Shown here piece after piece: positions 21,423 to 30,016 of a stretch of DNA of 64,000 nucleotides. The DNA is from Bacteroidota bacterium (GTDB taxonomy: Bacteria > Bacteroidota > Bacteroidia > Cytophagales > Cyclobacteriaceae). Every line of letters starts with the position of its first letter. Position 1 is the stretch's first letter. The position numbers and the translations under genes were made by a program. The stretch covers positions 62,001 to 126,000 of the forward strand of contig VGMW01000006.1 in assembly GCA_016866235.1 (NCBI GenBank), in the 5' to 3' direction. The notes below the pieces were generated by a model that searched no databases, was not told the DNA's origin, and saw nothing but the letters and a program-made list of their open reading frames with translations.

Positions 21423-22151
21423 CTAGGCGGTAACGCGTACCCGCTTTCTACGGATGAGCGTCCAGATGGCGGCAAAGGCAACTGCGCCCATGGCAATTTG
21501 TGCTGCAAGCACAATATCTGGTTGATCGGAACTCCTTTTCAGCACAATACCATTGAAGGCCCAAATCACAGCAATAGCAAGATAGGGGTTGTTCAGACGA
21601 ATCATGTTTACGGCGGTCACCACGATTCCGGAGGCGATCATAACAATTGTCCAGGTTACTTCATCCAACCCAAACCTTTGCCAATTCATGGAAACCAGAA
21701 GTGCAGTGGTATTGGCAATAGTGGCTACGAATATCCATCCGAGGTAAACCCCGAAAACCAGCCTCAGAAATTCATTTTTTTCTTCCGCCAGACCCACGTT
21801 AATGATCGTCAGGATGATCAGTAATCCGATCATGATTAACAAGGAAAGAAACACCTGCTCATAGTGCCAGCAAATGATCCAATAGATGTTTAGGACACAA
21901 CTGTTGATAAACAAGTAGTTCTCCGTCATGTTCGAACGGAAGCTGGATCTAAATTGGACGATGGAAAAGGCAAAAAGCAATAGATAGATCAATCCCCAGA
22001 TGGCGAAAGTAATGCCTGCGGGAACGAACAGGTTCACGTACAGATCCGACAACTCACCGGTTGTTTTACCATTGATCGGAAGGGAGGTAGCGAGGTAATT
22101 CACCACCACCATGGCGATAAACAAAATGGTATTTAAGATTTTAATGCGCAT
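21423..22151 (-). CDS. TspO/MBR-like (tryptophan-rich sensory protein-like) membrane protein
   Basis: A 242-residue integral membrane protein with about seven hydrophobic helices. It has the pattern of the large Bacteroidota group annotated as tryptophan-rich sensory proteins: an N-terminal VVNYLATSLPINGKTTG, then LFVPAGITFAIWGLIYLLL, where the PAGxxFxIWG segment recalls the first helices of TspO. True TspO has five helices and binds porphyrins; whether this larger relative does so is not known. It is convergent with the SDR at 20704. The gene lies downstream of the LytS/LytTR pair on the same strand, separated by 239 bases containing a large inverted repeat. Confidence 0.65.
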   Translation of the reverse strand: MRIKILNTILFIAMVVVNYLATSLPINGKTTGELSDLYVNLFVPAGITFAIWGLIYLLLFAFSIVQFRSSFRSNMTENYLFINSCVLNIYWIICWHYEQVFLSLLIMIGLLIILTIINVGLAEEKNEFLRLVFGVYLGWIFVATIANTTALLVSMNWQRFGLDEVTWTIVMIASGIVVTAVNMIRLNNPYLAIAVIWAFNGIVLKRSSDQPDIVLAAQIAMGAVAFAAIWTLIRRKRVRVTA

Positions 22152-22390: not shown

Positions 22391-23161
22391 TTAGCGGTCC
22401 AGCCACGCTTTTAGTTCGCCTGCCCGTTCGCGACTCACCGCCAGTTCATGTTCGGTCTGCTGATTCAGCCGTACCTCTATGCCTATACTAACAGAACCAC
22501 GCAATTCAGATACAGCGCTGAAGTTCACAATAAACTTCCGGCTGATGCGGAAAAATTGCTCCGGATCGAGGATGGATTCAAGCTCTTCCAGGGTATGATC
22601 AATTAGAAATTTATGGCCTTCATTCCGGGTGATTAAAAAAGCTGCTTTTCCATCAGCAAAGAAATACGCTGCCTGATCAACCGGCTTATACTGAAGCTTA
22701 TTCCCGGATTTAATCATCAGGCGCTGCTTATAACTACCGGTCGATTTTTTAAGCAGGTCACGCAACGCCTGCAGTTCCTTTTCACCTAAAACCGATTCCG
22801 ATTTGTTCATGCCCTTAAATTTCTTCAGTGCACGTTCCAGATCTTCTTTTTGAATGGGTTTTAGTAGATAATCAATGCTCCATTGTTTAAAAGCCTCCAT
22901 AGCATACTGATCGTAGGCTGTGGTGAAAATGATGGGCGTTTTAACCTCCACAAAATCAAAAATTTCAAAGCTTTTACCGTCCGCCAGCTGCACATCCATA
23001 AACAACAGGTCTGCAGTGCCTCCGTTTTTGAAATAGGCAACGGTATCCTGCACACTGTCGAAATGATCAATGATCTTAATCTCCGGATCAGTTTCTTTCA
23101 CCATGGTGGTAAGCCGCTCTGCAGCCAATCCTTCATCTTCGATAATTAGGGTGTTGATCAT
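22391..23161 (-). CDS. LytTR-family response regulator
   Basis: A 256-residue response regulator with an N-terminal receiver domain (about residues 1-120) and a C-terminal LytTR DNA-binding domain (about 150-256). The acidic pocket is in IIEDEG, the phosphoacceptor aspartate is in LLFMDVQLADG (about residue 56), the conserved Thr/Lys positions are in IIFTTAYDQYAMEAF and YLLKPIQ. The LytTR part shows YFFADGKAAFLIT and FFRISRKFIVNF. It starts four bases after the stop of the sensor kinase on the same strand, its expected partner. Confidence 0.95.
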   Translation of the reverse strand: MINTLIIEDEGLAAERLTTMVKETDPEIKIIDHFDSVQDTVAYFKNGGTADLLFMDVQLADGKSFEIFDFVEVKTPIIFTTAYDQYAMEAFKQWSIDYLLKPIQKEDLERALKKFKGMNKSESVLGEKELQALRDLLKKSTGSYKQRLMIKSGNKLQYKPVDQAAYFFADGKAAFLITRNEGHKFLIDHTLEELESILDPEQFFRISRKFIVNFSAVSELRGSVSIGIEVRLNQQTEHELAVSRERAGELKAWLDR

Positions 23162-23165
23162 TGGG

Positions 23166-24188
23166 TTAGTTTTTTGTGAGGAGGGGTAAGGTTACTTTAA
23201 AGGCAGTTTCAGTTTTATCGATGATTACTTCTTTGTCGGTCAGAAATCCGTAACGTCTGATGATGTTTCGAAGTCCGACGAAAGTTGAAGCTTCTTTGGT
23301 TATTTTTTCCTGGAGGTTGTTGATGACGCTGATGGAATCGCCTTCTCTTTTTAAGGTTATGCTTAAAGGATTTTTTTGGGAAACAACGTTGTGTTTGATG
23401 GCATTTTCAATAAGCATTTGCAATGATGCAGGGGCAACCTGAAAATGCTCAGTATCATCTATCTTCTCCAGTTCAATTTTGATGTTTTCTCCAAACCTGA
23501 TTTTCAGCAGATACAAGTAGGCATCCAGAAAATCCAGTTCTTCTTTTAATAAAACTAGTTTTTTTTCCTGATAAAACAAAAGGTAACGGTAAACATTGGA
23601 TAAATGAGAGATGAATTTTGCTGAAACCACCGGATCCTTATAAACCAATGATGACAATGCATTCAGGCAGTTGAATAAAAAATGGGGATTGATCTGACTG
23701 CGTAAGGCCTCAAATTGCGCTTCAACGTTTATTTTTTTCAGTTGCTCTGCTTCCAGTTCCGATTCCCTGAGCTTGTTGATGTAAAAGTAAATTCCATTGG
23801 CCGCGTTCAGAAACAGATTGATTCTGAATCCGAAGATGGTTAGCAACCTGAGGTGATTGTTCGACCACTCAACGGTCGTGTTGAGGATGTTGGTGATGAA
23901 CAAAAGAGCGAAAAGTGAACAAAGAACTATACCTGCAAGGCTGGTGATGAATTGAAGCACCAATGGATGGATTTTGCCTGAAAGCTGTCTGGAATACTTG
24001 TTAATGAGATGCTCGGCCAGTCTGTTGAATTCCCAGATCAAAAGAATGAAAATGGATAGAGTGATAAAAAGCAGTCCGTTCGGAAGCTGATCCGCAATTA
24101 GACTTTCACTGCTGGTGAACAAAATGTTGGCGAAGGAGTACAACGACAACAAGGCAATAAAAATATATCGGTGACGGATGCTAAACAC
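23166..24188 (-). CDS. LytS-like sensor histidine kinase (His_kinase family)
   Basis: A 340-residue kinase with about four N-terminal transmembrane helices (residues 1-140), a short coiled linker, and the His_kinase domain with the phosphoacceptor histidine in LRSQINPHFLFNCLNALSS (about residues 164-182). The ATPase part includes MLIENAIKHNVVS (N box) and FVGLRNIIRRYG. There is no large periplasmic sensor domain, so the signal may be sensed within the membrane. It forms an operon with the LytTR regulator and is divergent from the photolyase cluster that begins at 24433. Confidence 0.93.
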   Translation of the reverse strand: MFSIRHRYIFIALLSLYSFANILFTSSESLIADQLPNGLLFITLSIFILLIWEFNRLAEHLINKYSRQLSGKIHPLVLQFITSLAGIVLCSLFALLFITNILNTTVEWSNNHLRLLTIFGFRINLFLNAANGIYFYINKLRESELEAEQLKKINVEAQFEALRSQINPHFLFNCLNALSSLVYKDPVVSAKFISHLSNVYRYLLFYQEKKLVLLKEELDFLDAYLYLLKIRFGENIKIELEKIDDTEHFQVAPASLQMLIENAIKHNVVSQKNPLSITLKREGDSISVINNLQEKITKEASTFVGLRNIIRRYGFLTDKEVIIDKTETAFKVTLPLLTKN

Positions 24189-24265: not shown

Positions 24266-24432
24266 CACCTTTCTGAATTTTAGGATGCTCCGGGTTATTT
24301 TCCTTCATCCCTAAGGATTACCGGTGTGCATAATGTTTGATTCCTGGAGTGAAGGGTTGGTTTCGACGACTGAAAAAAGCATTTCGCCAGCTCTTAAAAT
24401 CTAAATTTATTGATTGCTCCAATGCGTACTTA

Positions 24433-25929
24433 ATGTCATGGAGTACAACAGTGAAAACAGCTCGACTGATATTCCCCAATACACTCTATCCAACCGCAAA
24501 ACCCGTTGATCAGGAGGAATTGGTGCTGGTGGAAGAGGATCTTTTCTTCAGTCAATATGATTTCCATAAAAATAAACTATCCTTCCATCGTGCCTCCCTT
24601 ACTGCCTGCCAGGAATCGCTCTTAAAAAAGCATCAGGCTGTTCATTACATCCGCGCTGGATCTGCTGGAAGTGACATCCGTGCGCTGATCCCACATTTGA
24701 GTAAACAGGGTTTTAGCCAAGTTATTACCGAAAATCCAACCGACTACCTTTTAGAACGTCGCTTGAGAAAAGCAGCACTCAAGGCCAACGTAAAACTCAC
24801 CGTAGAGCCCTCTCATAGATTTATTTCCTCTGATGATTTTCTTACTCAATGGTTTTCGGGCCGTAAAAATTATTTTCAGACCGACTTCTACATTGCACAG
24901 CGAAAACGACTCGGTTTGCTTCTTGATAAGGAAGGAAAGCCACTGAAGGGTAAATGGAGCTTTGATGCGGAGAACCGCGCACGATACCCAAAAAATAAAA
25001 AGCCACCCGTACTTCCAATCGTAAAGAAAAGTGCTGCATGGATCTCTGCCCAGCAGGAAATTGACGCTGTTTTCAAAAAAAATCCTGGTTCGGCCGTGGG
25101 TCTTACTTTGCCCGTCAACCCCACACAAGCCCGTGCCTGGTTGCAGTCGTTTCTCGAACAACGCTTCAAAAGTTTTGGCGAGTATGAAGATGCCATGGTT
25201 CAGGGGGAATCCTTCCTTCACCATTCCTTATTATCACCACTACTCAATGCAGGTCTACTAAGTCCTGAAGAAGTGGTGTCCTCAGCCGTGGAGGCAGCGC
25301 GCGAATTCAATGTCCCATACAACAGTCTGGAAGGATTTGTTCGTCAGATTGTAGGGTGGCGGGAATTCATCCGAGGGGTTTATCAATTTGCAGGCGTTAA
25401 ACAACGTACGACCAATTTTTTTAACCATCGTCACTCCATACCCAACGCTTTTTACACCGCAACCACCGGAATATTTCCTGTCGACGAGGTTATCGGGCGA
25501 TTGTTAAAAACCGGTTACAGTCATCACATCGAGCGTTTGATGATCCTGAGCAATTTTATGTTGCTCTGTGAAATTCATCCCGATGAGGTTTACCGGTGGT
25601 TCATGGAAATGTATGTCGATGCCTACGACTGGGTAATGGTTCCAAATGTTTATGGAATGGGTCAGTTTGCCGATGGCGGCCTGATGTGTTCAAAACCCTA
25701 CATCAGCGGCAGCAACTATATTCTTAAAATGAGCAACTATTCAAAGGACCCCGCCTGGACTGAAGTGTGGGATGGACTCTTTTGGAGGTTCATGGATAAG
25801 CAGCGTGCGTTTTTTCTCGGCAATCCAAGACTGGGCATGTTGGTGAAAATGTTCGATGGCATGGATATCCAAAAACGAAAGGCTCACCTCCGGACAGCTG
25901 AAAAATACCTTGAAAAGCTTCACCGATGA
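24433..25929 (+). CDS. Cryptochrome/photolyase family protein, FeS-BCP (PhrB-like) relative
   Basis: A 498-residue protein of the prokaryotic photolyase-related group (deoxyribodipyrimidine photolyase-related, FeS-BCP). An N-terminal alpha/beta antenna-type domain starts TARLIFPNTLYP, and the C-terminal FAD domain carries the group hallmark LCEIHPDEVYRWFMEMY, then DWVMVPNVYGMGQFADGG and SKPYISGSNYILKMSNY. In FeS-BCPs the segment after this normally supplies three cysteines (C-x2-C-x12-C) to a [4Fe-4S] cluster; here it reads SKDPAWTEVWDGLFWRFM, with none. Only the first ligand-like Cys, in LLCEIHP, remains. The start at 24433 is preferred to 24337, whose extra 32 residues are outside the fold. 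It heads a tightly overlapping cluster. Confidence 0.9.
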   Translation: MSWSTTVKTARLIFPNTLYPTAKPVDQEELVLVEEDLFFSQYDFHKNKLSFHRASLTACQESLLKKHQAVHYIRAGSAGSDIRALIPHLSKQGFSQVITENPTDYLLERRLRKAALKANVKLTVEPSHRFISSDDFLTQWFSGRKNYFQTDFYIAQRKRLGLLLDKEGKPLKGKWSFDAENRARYPKNKKPPVLPIVKKSAAWISAQQEIDAVFKKNPGSAVGLTLPVNPTQARAWLQSFLEQRFKSFGEYEDAMVQGESFLHHSLLSPLLNAGLLSPEEVVSSAVEAAREFNVPYNSLEGFVRQIVGWREFIRGVYQFAGVKQRTTNFFNHRHSIPNAFYTATTGIFPVDEVIGRLLKTGYSHHIERLMILSNFMLLCEIHPDEVYRWFMEMYVDAYDWVMVPNVYGMGQFADGGLMCSKPYISGSNYILKMSNYSKDPAWTEVWDGLFWRFMDKQRAFFLGNPRLGMLVKMFDGMDIQKRKAHLRTAEKYLEKLHR

Positions 25930-27050
25930 CCATCAGTTTCCCAACCGAGTACGCAAAAATTTTGGAACGGATGCACCGGATCGATCCGATCAACTATTCG
26001 GAAACCAGAAACTACCTCAATGGAGCGGTCACCCTTTTATCACCATACCTCTCCAGAGGCGTGATCAGCACCCGTCAGGTTTTTGAGTCTTTGATTGAAA
26101 GGGGTTTTTCTTTTGAACAATGTGAGACACTCATCAAAGAGCTGGCATGGAGGGACTATTTTCAACGGACCTGGCAGGTTAAAAAAGACCTGAGCACTCC
26201 AATACGGCAACCCCAGGAAGGGGTAGAGCGCCGCGGTCTGCCCGCTTCTCTCGCTAAGGCAAAAACGGGCGTCCCCTCAATAGATGAGGCAATTGATGAA
26301 CTCACCTCCACTGGCTATATGCACAACCATTGCAGGATGTATACCGCATCGGTAACCTGCAACATCGCGCGCTACGATTGGCTGGAGCCAGCGCGTTGGA
26401 TGTACTACCATCTACTGGATGCCGACTGGGCATCCAATGCCTGCAGCTGGCAATGGGTGGCAGGCGCCAACAGCACCAAAAAATATTATTGCAATCAGGA
26501 AAACATCAATCATTACACTGGACGTCAGGATAAAACCTTTCTGTCCTGTAGTTATGAGGATCTCCTCAACATTCGTCCACCTGGTGATTGGAATGAAACG
26601 GTGACTGAGATCTTATATTCATCACTACCAGCAGTGGTAGCTCAAGAGCTGGATCCCACACTGCCGGTTTGTGTATACAACTTTTACAATCTCGATCCAT
26701 TGTGGAGATCGGATCAACCATGCAACCGTGTGTTGTTGCTGGAGCCTGATCATTTTTCAAATTATCCAGTTCATGAGCGCAGTATTCATTTTATGCTGGA
26801 GCTCACTGAAAATATTCCGGACCTGATGGTGTTCAGCGGAAGCTGGAGTGATTTCAAACAGCGATTCCCCCATCAGACCATATACTTTAAAGAACATCCG
26901 CTTTTCAGTCACTATGAAGGCCAAATGGACCAAAGAGCATGGCTTGTCCCTGAAGTTCAAGGTCACTTCAACTCATTTTCGGGCTATTGGAAAAAAATCG
27001 AGCACCCACTCAAAAAACAATTCACCAGGCAAACTACCCTCTCCTTATGA
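25926..27050 (+). CDS. Photolyase FAD-binding-domain protein with domain order FAD-first
   Basis: A 374-residue protein that begins almost at once with the photolyase FAD-binding domain (about residues 25-200): LSPYLSRGVISTRQV, ELAWRDYFQRTW, STGYMHNHCRMYTA, and LLDADWASNACSWQWVAG. Trp positions corresponding to the electron-transfer chain (in YDWLEPA and SWQW) are retained, and Asn occupies the position four before the first Trp of WQW, next to flavin N5 in photolyases. There is no N-terminal antenna domain. Instead ~150 residues follow the FAD domain and look alpha/beta (for example RVLLLEPDHFSNYP), suggesting a permuted order. It overlaps both neighbours by four bases. Repair or signalling activity is unknown. 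Confidence 0.85.
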   Translation: MTISFPTEYAKILERMHRIDPINYSETRNYLNGAVTLLSPYLSRGVISTRQVFESLIERGFSFEQCETLIKELAWRDYFQRTWQVKKDLSTPIRQPQEGVERRGLPASLAKAKTGVPSIDEAIDELTSTGYMHNHCRMYTASVTCNIARYDWLEPARWMYYHLLDADWASNACSWQWVAGANSTKKYYCNQENINHYTGRQDKTFLSCSYEDLLNIRPPGDWNETVTEILYSSLPAVVAQELDPTLPVCVYNFYNLDPLWRSDQPCNRVLLLEPDHFSNYPVHERSIHFMLELTENIPDLMVFSGSWSDFKQRFPHQTIYFKEHPLFSHYEGQMDQRAWLVPEVQGHFNSFSGYWKKIEHPLKKQFTRQTTLSL

Positions 27051-27697
27051 AAATCAATGCAAACGACCTCAGCACGATGGAGCAACGCTACCGCGCTACT
27101 TTGATTAACTCCCTTGCCGGCGTGCGGCAGGTGGCGCTGGTTGGCACCCAATCTCCAGATGGGGTCAATAACCTGGCCATTTTCAATTCATTAATTCACA
27201 TCGGGGCCAATCCGCCACTTTATGGTCTGCTGTTCCGGCCTGCAACGGTTCGACGAGATACACTCACCAATATTTTTGAAACCGGTAGCTATACGATCAA
27301 CTTTCCATCATCAAGATATTTCATGCAATCGCATCAAACATCGGCGAAGTATGGAGAGCAAGAGTCTGAATTCGACGAAGTGGGACTCACCGCTGCCCAC
27401 GAGCCCAACGTCCATGCGCCATTTGTGAAAGAAGCCATTGTTAAAATGGCCATGAAGTATGAAGAAAAAGTTGACATCTCCATCAATGGCACCATTATGA
27501 TCATCGGCTCCATTCAGATGATCTGTTTGCCCGATCGTATGGTTTCGGAAGATGGCTATGTCGGACACGATCTCGGGGATACCCTGGCTTGTGCAGGTTT
27601 GGATGCGTACTACAGGGTTAGCGAAATCGGACGGTTAAGCTATGCGCGTCCAGGCCAGTGGTCTGAGCCCGTCGAAAGAACGAGTGTGAAGGCATGA
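27047..27697 (+). CDS. Flavin reductase-like (split-barrel FMN-binding) protein
   Basis: A 216-residue protein of the flavin reductase-like split-barrel family, which binds FMN and may reduce it with NAD(P)H. The characteristic opening is a strand-loop [25 protein letters not shown] followed by [10 protein letters not shown] and a segment around [10 protein letters not shown] (first segment given only as a location, about residues 25-49). The ATG at 27047 overlaps the preceding stop (ATGA); the longer open frame to 26987 is only an extension. It sits inside the photolyase cluster, so it may supply reduced flavin to, or act beside, the two photolyase homologues. That is inference from context. 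Confidence 0.83.
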
Positions 27698-27840
27698 AAA
27701 AAACCTTTCTGCCTGAAAAAATCTGTGTGGTGTGTGGCCGCCCTTTTTCCTGGCGAAAGAAATGGGAAAAAGTCTGGTCAGAAGTACGCTACTGCAGCGA
27801 TCGGTGCAGAATGAACAGAAACAAATCAAGCAAATCATGA
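27694..27840 (+). CDS. DUF2256 zinc-ribbon-like microprotein
   Basis: A 48-residue protein with four cysteines in two pairs, CVVC (residues 11-14) and CSDRC (34-38), as expected for a small zinc site. The motif [11 protein letters not shown] followed by VRYCSDRCR is the DUF2256 signature. This family is frequently found beside cryptochrome/photolyase-related genes, as here, but its function is unknown. It starts in the ATGA at the end of the flavin reductase gene and its own stop overlaps the next ATG in the same way, so it is embedded in a translationally coupled chain. Too short for many gene callers, but the pattern is strong. Confidence 0.92.
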
Positions 27841-28538
27841 AAAACATTTTAATCGCAGGTGCAGGTCGAGGCATCGGTCTTGCCTGCGCAAAAAAACTCA
27901 GTGGGGTCTCAAATATATTCGCCATTACCCGAACACCGACCGCTGAACTTGAACAAACCGGCGCAACTGTTTTACAGGCCGATGTGGCCAAGGACACCTT
28001 GTCGGTTCAACCTGGCTGGCCGGATGAATTTCATGGGCTGGTCTATTGCCCCGGAAGCATCAACCTAAAACCATTTCATCGGCTCACCGAACAGGATTTT
28101 CTGTCCGACTTCCAGCAAAATGTTTCCGGTGCAGTGCGTTTGATCCAACAATTTCTACCTGCTCTTAAAAAAGCCTCAGGGGCTTCGGTGGTTCTTTTCA
28201 GCACGGTAGCCGTAAAAAATGGAATGCCTTTTCATGCCTCCATTGCAGCATCTAAAGGTGCAGTAGAAGGCCTGGCCAAAAGCCTTGCCGCTGAACTGGC
28301 AGGATCAAAAATCCGGGTAAATGTTATCGCTCCTTCGCTGACCGATACACCACTGGCTGGGTCCTTGCTGAATACAGAAGAGAAAAAAGAAGCTGCAGGC
28401 AAACGGCACCCGCTGCAGCGTGTAGGTACTGTCGACGACATGGCTGCAATGACAGCCTTCCTGCTTGGTGAGGAGAGTAGCTGGGTCACCGGGCAGATAA
28501 TAGGAGTAGACGGTGGCCTTGGCAGTCTTCGTGTTTAA
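27837..28538 (+). CDS. SDR-family protein lacking the catalytic tyrosine
   Basis: A 233-residue short-chain dehydrogenase fold. The nucleotide-binding loop [11 protein letters not shown] is intact and the C-terminal [20 protein letters not shown] and [11 protein letters not shown] are typical. The active site is altered: the expected YxxxK reads IAASK in [16 protein letters not shown], so the catalytic Tyr is Ile although Ser (LFSTVAV) and Lys remain. I recall the same variant in SDRs linked to photolyase clusters elsewhere, so this may be a subfamily trait. It may bind a nucleotide or flavin without reducing a ketone. The ATG at 27837 overlaps the DUF2256 stop. Confidence 0.85.
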
Positions 28539-28573
28539 TAATATTGTCGTTCAGAAGGATTGAAGCGAAGGGG

Positions 28574-30016
28574 ATGAAAATACTGCTAACAGGTGCCAAT
28601 GGATACATCGGAAAACGCTTGCTTCCGGTTCTCTTGTCCATGGGTCATGAGGTGGTTTGCTGTGTACGGGACCGGAAAAGGCTGCCTGCAGCCCCATTCC
28701 TCCAACACCCTTCGGTAAGCATTCTCGAACTGGACCTTCTCAACGTCCCGCCTTCCGTTCCCAACCTTGATGACGTAGACGCGGCTTACTACCTGGTTCA
28801 TTCCATGAGTGACCGCCTTCAGGACTTTGAAGAACTTGAAGTCACCTCAGCCAATAATTTCATACGTCTGCTCATGGGTACCAGGGTACAGCAGATCATT
28901 TACCTTGGCGGAATCGTCAACGACCCCAGGCTTTCGCGCCATCTTTCCTCAAGGAAACATGTCGATGAGATTTTGAGGAGCTCCGGAATTCCGGTCACCA
29001 CCCTGAAGGCGGGCATCATCGTTGGATCTGGAAGTTCTTCTTTTGAAATCATCCGTGACCTGGTAGAACGCCTGCCGGTCATGATCACCCCACGTTGGCT
29101 CAACACCAAGATCCAGCCGATTGGTATTAAAAATGTTCTTGAGTACCTGACCGGTGTACTGCTCAAGGCCGATACGTTTGATCAGTCTTACGACATTGGC
29201 GGCGCCGAAGTTCTTACCTACAAAGATCTGCTGCTTCAGTTTGCAGAGACCAGGGGATTAAAACGGCTTATACTCACACTGCCGGTGATGACGCCGCGCC
29301 TGTCTTCCTACTGGCTCTATTTTGTAACCTCAACTTCCTACAAACTCGCGGTCAACCTGGTGAACAGCATGTATGTTGAAGTCATTGCGCGTTCGAACAA
29401 CCTTGGTCAACAGCTGGGAATTCGCCCCGATACCTATCGGCAGGCAGTAGCCAATGCCTTTAAGCAAACGGAAGAAAATGAAGTCATCTCCAGTTGGAAG
29501 GACTCCATGGTTTCCAGCATGCCGTCGTTTAAATTATACGACCACCTTGCTGTGCCGGTCAATGGATGTCTGATGAACAAACAGCAGGTTGAAATCACCG
29601 GCTCTGGTGAACAGGTGTTGTCTAATTTCTGGTCCATCGGTGGCAGCAGAGGCTGGTATTATGGCGACTGGCTTTGGTTGCTGCGCGGATTTCTGGATAA
29701 AGTCGTGGGAGGAGTAGGATTGCGTAGGGGCAGGACCAATCAATCAGAAATCAGCTCAGGTGACACCCTTGATTTTTGGAGGGTGCTGGTGGCCGACAAG
29801 GAAGCCAAACGTTTGCTGCTCTTTGCTGAAATGAAACTTCCTGGAGAGGCCTGGCTTGAGTTTTGGATTCGCGAGCAAAATGGTAAACCGTATCTGTTTC
29901 AGACAGCTACTTTTCGTCCGAAGGGACTTTTTGGAAGATTGTATTGGTACGTTCTGGTGCCCATCCATTTCTTTTTATTTAAGGGCATGGCACAACGGAT
30001 TGTGAATTTTCGGTAA
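28574..30016 (+). CDS. NAD(P)-binding SDR with C-terminal DUF2867
   Basis: A 480-residue protein with an atypical/extended SDR domain (about residues 1-300), starting KILLTGANGYIGKRLLP, with YYLVHSM and IIYLGGIVND, followed by DUF2867 (about 330-480) ending in YWYVLVPIHFFLFKGMAQRI, a region with hydrophobic helices that may touch the membrane. The ATG at 28574 is preceded by GAAGGGG, a reasonable ribosome-binding site. It lies 35 bases after the previous SDR and is the last gene of the photolyase cluster. Such SDR-DUF2867 fusions are widespread but of unknown substrate. It is convergent with the DUF547 gene. Confidence 0.85.
   Translation: MKILLTGANGYIGKRLLPVLLSMGHEVVCCVRDRKRLPAAPFLQHPSVSILELDLLNVPPSVPNLDDVDAAYYLVHSMSDRLQDFEELEVTSANNFIRLLMGTRVQQIIYLGGIVNDPRLSRHLSSRKHVDEILRSSGIPVTTLKAGIIVGSGSSSFEIIRDLVERLPVMITPRWLNTKIQPIGIKNVLEYLTGVLLKADTFDQSYDIGGAEVLTYKDLLLQFAETRGLKRLILTLPVMTPRLSSYWLYFVTSTSYKLAVNLVNSMYVEVIARSNNLGQQLGIRPDTYRQAVANAFKQTEENEVISSWKDSMVSSMPSFKLYDHLAVPVNGCLMNKQQVEITGSGEQVLSNFWSIGGSRGWYYGDWLWLLRGFLDKVVGGVGLRRGRTNQSEISSGDTLDFWRVLVADKEAKRLLLFAEMKLPGEAWLEFWIREQNGKPYLFQTATFRPKGLFGRLYWYVLVPIHFFLFKGMAQRIVNFR

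Follow-up and report, generated by a model that had tools for sequence, protein, structure and literature searches.

The 64,000-nt stretch of Bacteroidota DNA analysed here (hereafter the window; contig VGMW01000006.1, positions 62,001 to 126,000) carries six head-to-tail open reading frames (ORFs), genes A to F, all on the + strand. With a probability of about 0.75, this cluster is a Bacteroidota photorepair operon that would act on both main UV lesions with the aid of a flavin reductase and small partner proteins, as judged from protein families, conserved residues and gene context. Gene A (24433..25929, 498 aa from its ATG) encodes a prokaryotic (6-4) photolyase-type flavoprotein without iron-sulfur (Fe-S) cysteines, and gene B (25926..27050, 374 aa) a putative cyclobutane pyrimidine dimer (CPD) photolyase like those of the NewPHL/SPL class, with the FAD domain first and an extra domain at the C-terminus. 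They are followed by gene C (27047..27697, 216 aa from ATG), a flavin reductase-like protein; gene D (27694..27840, 48 aa), a basic DUF2256 microprotein with four cysteines; gene E (27837..28538, 233 aa from ATG), a short-chain dehydrogenase/reductase (SDR) in which isoleucine replaces the catalytic tyrosine; and gene F (28574..30016, 480 aa from ATG), an NmrA-like SDR fused to DUF2867 and loosely associated with the others. The mechanical ORF of A opens at a TTG at 24337, and those of C and E also open upstream of the ATG. A preliminary description had reported six same-strand genes with the first five joined by four-base overlaps, and both the ORF list and the sequence agree with it: ATGA stands at 25926-25929, 27047-27050, 27694-27697 and 27837-27840, joining A to E, and a 35-nt gap without overlap separates E from F. 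Its family assignments likewise match the Pfam results for all six proteins. Among 492 same-strand neighbour pairs in the fetched loci, 34 overlap by 4 nt; the overlaps in the window exceed chance, and the tight, often overlapping order recurs in relatives.

The DUF2256 protein is associated most closely with genes of type A. Gene D matches DUF2256 (PF10013) at 3.7e-22 with 78.6 bits against a cut-off of 25, and the family consensus, LPxKiCxvCxrpFtWRKKW...YCSxrCR (50 rows, the window being present twice), retains a CxxC and a CxxxC motif around a strongly basic, tryptophan-rich middle. DUF2256 has been assigned to the TRASH metal-binding clan (PMC4047054) and is described as frequent among small proteins (PMC11796252). 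In a survey of gene content in 198 Bacteroidota genomes, the source genome included, DUF2256 was present in 50 of the 52 genomes with both A and a canonical photolyase, in 8/13 with A only, in 4/47 with a canonical photolyase only and in 0/86 with neither. Overall, 58 of 65 genomes with A and 4 of 133 without A contained it; two weak matches were dropped, and counting them would give 5/47 for canonical only, 1/86 for neither and 6/133 without A. The 58 genomes common to DUF2256 and A (of 62 and 65 respectively) compare with 20.4 expected, and a hand count at genus level found 33 genera common to the 35 with DUF2256 and the 39 with A, among 102. A photolyase lies within 5 kb of DUF2256 in 40 of the 62 genomes, against an expectation of roughly 0.5%. 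Where D and A are same-strand neighbours in relatives, the gap is within 30 nt in 23 of 30 pairs and is the exact 4-nt overlap in 17 of 30. Genome content thus disfavours DUF2256 as the partner of a CPD photolyase, despite its often adjoining one, and suggests that it is an unrecognised partner of (6-4) photolyases. Outside this survey, 133 plasmid records contain DUF2256, of which 60 were listed and 11 annotated loci, from different genera with one in Bacteroidota, were examined. Four of these 11 loci adjoin a photolyase: Acinetobacter, also with TIGR03643; Sphingomonas and Rhizobium, beside A-type genes; and Salinivibrio. A Vibrio campbellii record outside this set holds DUF2256 and a photolyase within about 3 kb. 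Another DNA-damage context was seen in Thioclava (L151:3989-4785), in which the DUF2256 gene is followed by a gene for an SOS response-associated peptidase.

The neighbourhood of gene B was followed through 97 loci, consisting of the best 80 of 579 confirmed loci from a genome contig scan, 16 further loci (in one of these, L047, B is a 100-aa fragment) and the window; two contigs occur twice (L036/L096 and L041/L114). At least one other cluster family lies on the B strand within 9 kb in 90 of the 97. Under the stricter thresholds these same-strand neighbours are A in 56 loci, D in 50, DUF2805 in 47, a canonical photolyase in 28, C in 22, E in 15 and F in 6. Anywhere in the loci and at a loose threshold, the counts are A 57, D 50, DUF2805 48, canonical photolyase 33, E-like SDR 32, C 24, rhodopsin 7 and F 6. 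All of these are lower bounds, because in 34 loci the available sequence stops less than 5 kb from B. In the 198 genomes, B is found at full length in 16; each of these also has DUF2256 and an A-type gene, which in 14 is of the closer type (defined below). The genome co-occurrence counts make A and D a tight pair, with C and E as frequent companions and F as an optional one. Random neighbours in related Bacteroidota, the outcome that would have spoken against a functional unit, were not seen for A, B, C, D or E; the proposal that all six genes form one unit holds as a recurring Bacteroidota unit, with F only loosely attached to it.

A usual neighbour of B in these loci is a gene that is not in the cluster of the window. 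DUF2805 (TIGR03643) lies just upstream of B on the same strand in 45 pairs (for example, L033:10541-10822, - strand), and its consensus appears helix-turn-helix-like by eye. The gap is within 30 nt in 40 of these 45 DUF2805-B pairs and in 21 of 23 pairs of B with a canonical photolyase, compared with 218 of 492 baseline pairs. By photolyase content, DUF2805 is present in 42/52 genomes with A and a canonical photolyase, 6/13 with A only, 5/47 with a canonical photolyase only (8/47 if three genomes with a weaker match, which were dropped, are counted) and 0/86 with neither. The single DUF2805 match of the source genome lies away from the cluster (G000:C1:129423). DUF2805 appears in a marine correlation table, in passages that draw no tie to photolyases. 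In the literature searched, no paper mentioned DUF2256 together with photolyase, and no link of DUF2256 or DUF2805 to photolyases was found.

Gene A belongs with the prokaryotic (6-4) photolyases by its domains and its solved relatives. It matches DPRP at 6.8e-44 and FAD_binding_7 at 25.9 bits, just below the 27-bit cut-off. Its closest solved relatives are PhrB structures (5kcm and 4dja, E about 1e-78; 2e-78 for 4dja), followed by the cryptochrome/photolyase family protein 9hnk, CryB (3zxs) and an entry named '6-4 photolyase (FeS-BCP, CryPro)' (7ykn). The alignment with PhrB spans residues 27-475 of A, and the HHI motif is retained. Unlike FeS-BCP, PhrB and CryB, A has none of the four cluster cysteines that define the FeS-BCP subtype: in the PhrB alignment, C350 is replaced by Pro349 and C438 by Ser437, and C441 and C454 fall in gaps. 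A is therefore not expected to bind a PhrB-type Fe-S cluster. The three-cysteine Fe-S motif is absent from 52 of the 55 A-family rows in B loci, in which the window and two contigs stand twice, and present in L036, L069 and L096, of which L036 and L096 are the same contig. L096 belongs to Pedobacter sp. Leaf170, which, like Poritiphilus flavus (L062), has a cluster similar to that of the window. A second subfamily of A in other Bacteroidota is of the Fe-S type, with the motif, by the search pattern used here, in five of six sampled members and only its first cysteine in the sixth. Among the 198 genomes, 23 carry the closer type (at least 43% identity to A), 42 the distant type (at most 39%) and none both; from the rows examined, the closer type is apparently Fe-S-less throughout and the distant type Fe-S-bearing throughout. 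Prokaryotic (6-4) photolyases lacking the cluster have been described before, as subgroup M with PromaPL of P. marinus (PMC9178010).

Gene B has the FAD-first arrangement of the NewPHL/SPL class. Its only Pfam match is FAD_binding_7 (PF03441, 7.4e-25) at residues 70-196 of 374; the antenna-domain families PF00875 and PF04244 are both missing from its N-terminus, and the PDB matches listed for it reach at most residues 11-219. The active site was judged by residues of known role in the A. nidulans photolyase. The residues aligned with W286, N349, W367, D380, D382, N386, W390 and W392 are retained in all 96 B rows (the window and two contigs being present twice), and those aligned with E283 and M353 in 92 of 96. 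A tryptophan dyad, W152 and W175, is present in 96/96 rows, and the distal tryptophan corresponding to A. nidulans W314 is lost. Cryptochrome-DASH was considered for B and rejected; the NCBIfam DASH model is its top NCBIfam match, at 82 of 317 bits, far under the cut-off.

The C-terminal 179 residues of B have no Pfam match. Compared with the canonical N-terminal domain they scored weakly at 24.0 (E 0.005; 27.9 and E 0.001 in the reverse direction), with shuffles reaching 18.8 at most; among 31 family alignments (those of B, A and the canonical photolyases being in the set), one reached 24.6, above the B score. The same comparison for the Deinococcus SPL C-terminus gave a probability of 96%, E 5e-9 and a score of 58.4, where 60 shuffles scored no higher than 16.6. 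The alphaproteobacterial SPL set was indecisive: it scored 26.4, between the A family (32.6) and an unrelated one (25.5). Below its cut-off, PF00875 matched three Deinococcus sequences, L129 (E 7e-4), L135 (E 1e-3) and the second ORF of L136 (E 2e-4); Pfam gave no match to it in Deinococcus L137, three alphaproteobacterial SPLs or B. In Deinococcus sp. QL22 (L136:3878-5169), the SPL FAD and antenna-like domains lie on two ORFs with a 4-nt overlap, as a natural split or a frameshift. In trees, B formed its own Bacteroidota clade (support 100/99), and B with the SPLs was split from six canonical rows at 100/100. When A rows were added, B joined the Deinococcus SPLs weakly (85/75), and the alphaproteobacterial SPLs joined the canonical photolyases (80/73), a topology that carries a long-branch warning. 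The canonical side of that tree had eight rows, five from 43 Bacteroidota photolyases and three from plasmids, one plasmid row being dropped by the program; of the 43 Bacteroidota sequences, only 15 carried the motif used to cut the domain.

The NewPHL/SPL class is reported to have an inverted topology (Emmerich et al., 2020, as cited in PMC13274461) and to repair CPDs in single-stranded DNA (PMC13274461), and SPLs have been described as lacking the alpha/beta domain (PMC9649867). B resembles this class in the missing N-terminal antenna domain, the leading FAD domain, the extra C-terminal domain and a tryptophan dyad in place of a triad, as in one member of the class (PMC8948257). It differs in forming a separate clade, in lacking the Cys motif, presumably Fe-S-binding, of the Deinococcus SPLs, and in lying among photolyase-related genes, whereas the alphaproteobacterial SPLs are often near an AarF/ABC1/UbiB kinase gene. 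In five annotated alphaproteobacterial loci, the kinase gene adjoins the SPL in L131 and L132, lies within 2 kb in L138 and L139 and is not near it in L130; a DUF3429 gene adjoins the SPL in L130, L138 and L139. A description of B and its Deinococcus relatives as a new permuted photolyase was set aside, since the inverted topology is already published for this class (PMC13274461).

The remaining genes would be helpers. C matches Flavin_Reduct (PF01613) at 3.4e-15, and DUF2256 is present in 29 of the 33 genomes with C. E matches adh_short_C2 (PF13561) at 3.6e-42. Its position 136, which we take to be the site of the catalytic tyrosine in the classical Ser-Tyr-Lys set, is isoleucine in the window and valine in 10, isoleucine in 3 and tyrosine in 1 of 14 relatives; Ser122 and Lys140 are retained in 14/14. 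Because the tyrosine of the classical set is replaced in the window and in 13 of the 14 relatives, E probably does not act as an ordinary dehydrogenase. DUF2256 occurs in 30 of the 40 genomes with an E-type SDR. F matches DUF2867 (PF11066) at 1.3e-30 and NAD_binding_10/NmrA, the former (PF13460) at 8.7e-10, and DUF2256 occurs in 28 of the 55 genomes with F.

The operon proposed here, presumably co-transcribed, would serve Bacteroidota living in light. B would bind FAD, and the excited reduced flavin would split CPDs, perhaps preferentially in single-stranded DNA by analogy to NewPHLs; A would carry out the equivalent repair of (6-4) photoproducts and would do so without an Fe-S cluster. In B, which lacks the distal tryptophan of the usual electron chain, photoreduction by itself may be inefficient. 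In the NewPHL of Dinoroseobacter, which has a tryptophan dyad only, about 90% of photo-induced radical pairs are lost within the first few nanoseconds (PMC8948257), so a flavin reductase would be a sensible dark route to reduced FAD, and C may help to hold the FAD of A and B reduced in the dark. D would be a four-cysteine protein dedicated to the (6-4) photolyase and probably involved in maturation or in DNA/protein docking; E, which lacks the tyrosine, and F may be nucleotide- or flavin/pterin-binding helpers. A broader and more tentative proposal, to which we give somewhat less than even odds, is that prokaryotic (6-4) photolyases in general, whether or not they carry an Fe-S cluster, need DUF2256 as an accessory subunit for loading of the cofactor, for stability or for docking to DNA. 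On the same proposal, DUF2256 would work in Bacteroidota within a coupled repair unit made up of DUF2805, the inverted CPD photolyase, the flavin reductase, the tyrosine-less SDR and the (6-4) photolyase, in which enzymatic flavin reduction in the dark replaces part of the tryptophan-chain photoactivation.

Several observations weigh against the photorepair operon or parts of it. No cluster family lies on the B strand in 7 of the 97 loci (L061, L067, L083, L084, L088, L097 and L126), and the genomes behind the co-occurrence counts are not independent. On plasmids, the Salinivibrio DUF2256 gene overlaps a canonical photolyase and not an A-type gene, and in 7 of the 11 DUF2256 loci no photolyase is annotated within 4 kb, with a gene table that is incomplete and one stretch that is cut off at the record start. 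Homology of the B C-terminus to the antenna domain is weakly supported by its sequence, and A, judged by sequence, could be a cryptochrome instead of a repair enzyme. C and E each co-occur with B in 7 of the 16 B genomes (p 0.007 and 0.02). F shares five genomes with B, which is the chance level (p 0.47), and has a photolyase within 5 kb in 12 of 55 genomes; its place as a core member was not upheld.

The rival that survives best is a co-regulated sunlight-stress island, in which a common light-responsive promoter would drive genes of no common pathway, and the SDRs and flavin reductase would treat photo-oxidised lipids, carotenoids or quinones. Three relatives have genes of this kind adjoining the cluster (rhodopsin and lycopene cyclase in L033, CrtB in L036, CrtB and CrtI in L045), and the seven rhodopsin matches in the 97 loci, the distance of F from photolyases in most genomes and the enrichment, among flavobacteria with proteorhodopsin, of a photolyase proximity cluster (PMC5932025) all agree with it. 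It does not account as well for DUF2256, which tracks the (6-4) photolyase by genome content and not by location alone, and which overlaps A by 4 nt in more than half of the D-A pairs. For the helpers, the stress island is compatible with the photorepair operon; for the set as a whole, it is a possible explanation that we consider somewhat improbable.

An unlikely alternative is that the cluster serves light signalling, with A and/or B acting as cryptochromes that pass a blue-light signal to regulators, the outputs being the SDRs and the DUF proteins. RsCryB, of the same group as A, regulates gene expression (PMC9178010). A histidine kinase and a LytTR response regulator, possible regulators of the operon, are encoded divergently upstream (22391-24188, - strand), and DUF2805, with its helix-turn-helix-like appearance, is a same-strand neighbour of B in about half of the loci. 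Set against this, the histidine kinase model was matched in just 4 of the 97 B loci, the window included, at a loose threshold, and 92 to 96 of the 96 B rows retain the flavin-N5 Asn and the residues for the CPD substrate, which a pure sensor would not have to conserve. Chance assembly is refuted for A to E, F aside, and merits next to no credence: four-base overlaps are not rare in the baseline pairs, but the 90 B loci with another cluster family and a co-occurrence far above expectation do not fit it.

Further genes and sequences around the cluster and in the source genome, which is about 95% complete, were also recorded. A TspO/MBR-like protein (PF03073, 25.3 bits, cut-off 24) is encoded at 21423-22151 on the - strand, about 2.3 kb from A, and in Chelatococcus (L142) a TspO gene and a photolyase gene share an overlap of 8 nt. 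Elsewhere in the source genome there is one rhodopsin and one canonical photolyase match. Upstream of A, one Bacteroidota promoter pattern had no exact match, and there was no perfect inverted repeat with arms of 7-15 nt and a spacer of up to 13 nt.

The nearest described systems are the LitR-linked regions of Pseudomonas and the photolyase proximity cluster of flavobacteria. The former contain light-induced genes that include phrB, an SDR, an FAD oxidoreductase, cryB and pterin genes (PMC9758184), and so resemble the window in bringing a photolyase, cryB, an SDR and an FAD oxidoreductase into light-responsive regions. They differ in that NewPHL, DUF2256 and a flavin reductase are not named in the passages of PMC9758184 describing them, and none of the six genes of the window corresponds to folE, folX or folM. 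The proximity cluster of proteorhodopsin-bearing Flavobacteriia is similar in that photolyase-related genes are clustered and enriched with rhodopsin; its members are unnamed in the section that describes it (PMC5932025). The preliminary description had favoured light-driven DNA repair, which is very likely from the families, active-site residues, neighbourhood and genome content. It had also called the chemistry undescribed, and here it does not hold: the core reaction is known, since A matches the (6-4) photolyases and B the published NewPHL/SPL architecture. Cofactor transfer by the small proteins, also suggested there, is a possible role. Four findings go beyond that description: A lacks the Fe-S cysteines, B begins with its FAD domain, relatives usually have a DUF2805 gene as neighbour, and E lacks the catalytic tyrosine.

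Photolyases are usually regarded as single-protein enzymes. Both enzyme classes, like the inverted order of domains, were known already; what appears new, in that no such link was found in the literature searched, is the connection of DUF2256 and DUF2805 to photolyases, and a putative DUF2256 partner of about 48 residues is notable against the usual view. If true, the partner role would show what DUF2256, so far a domain without an assigned function, does.

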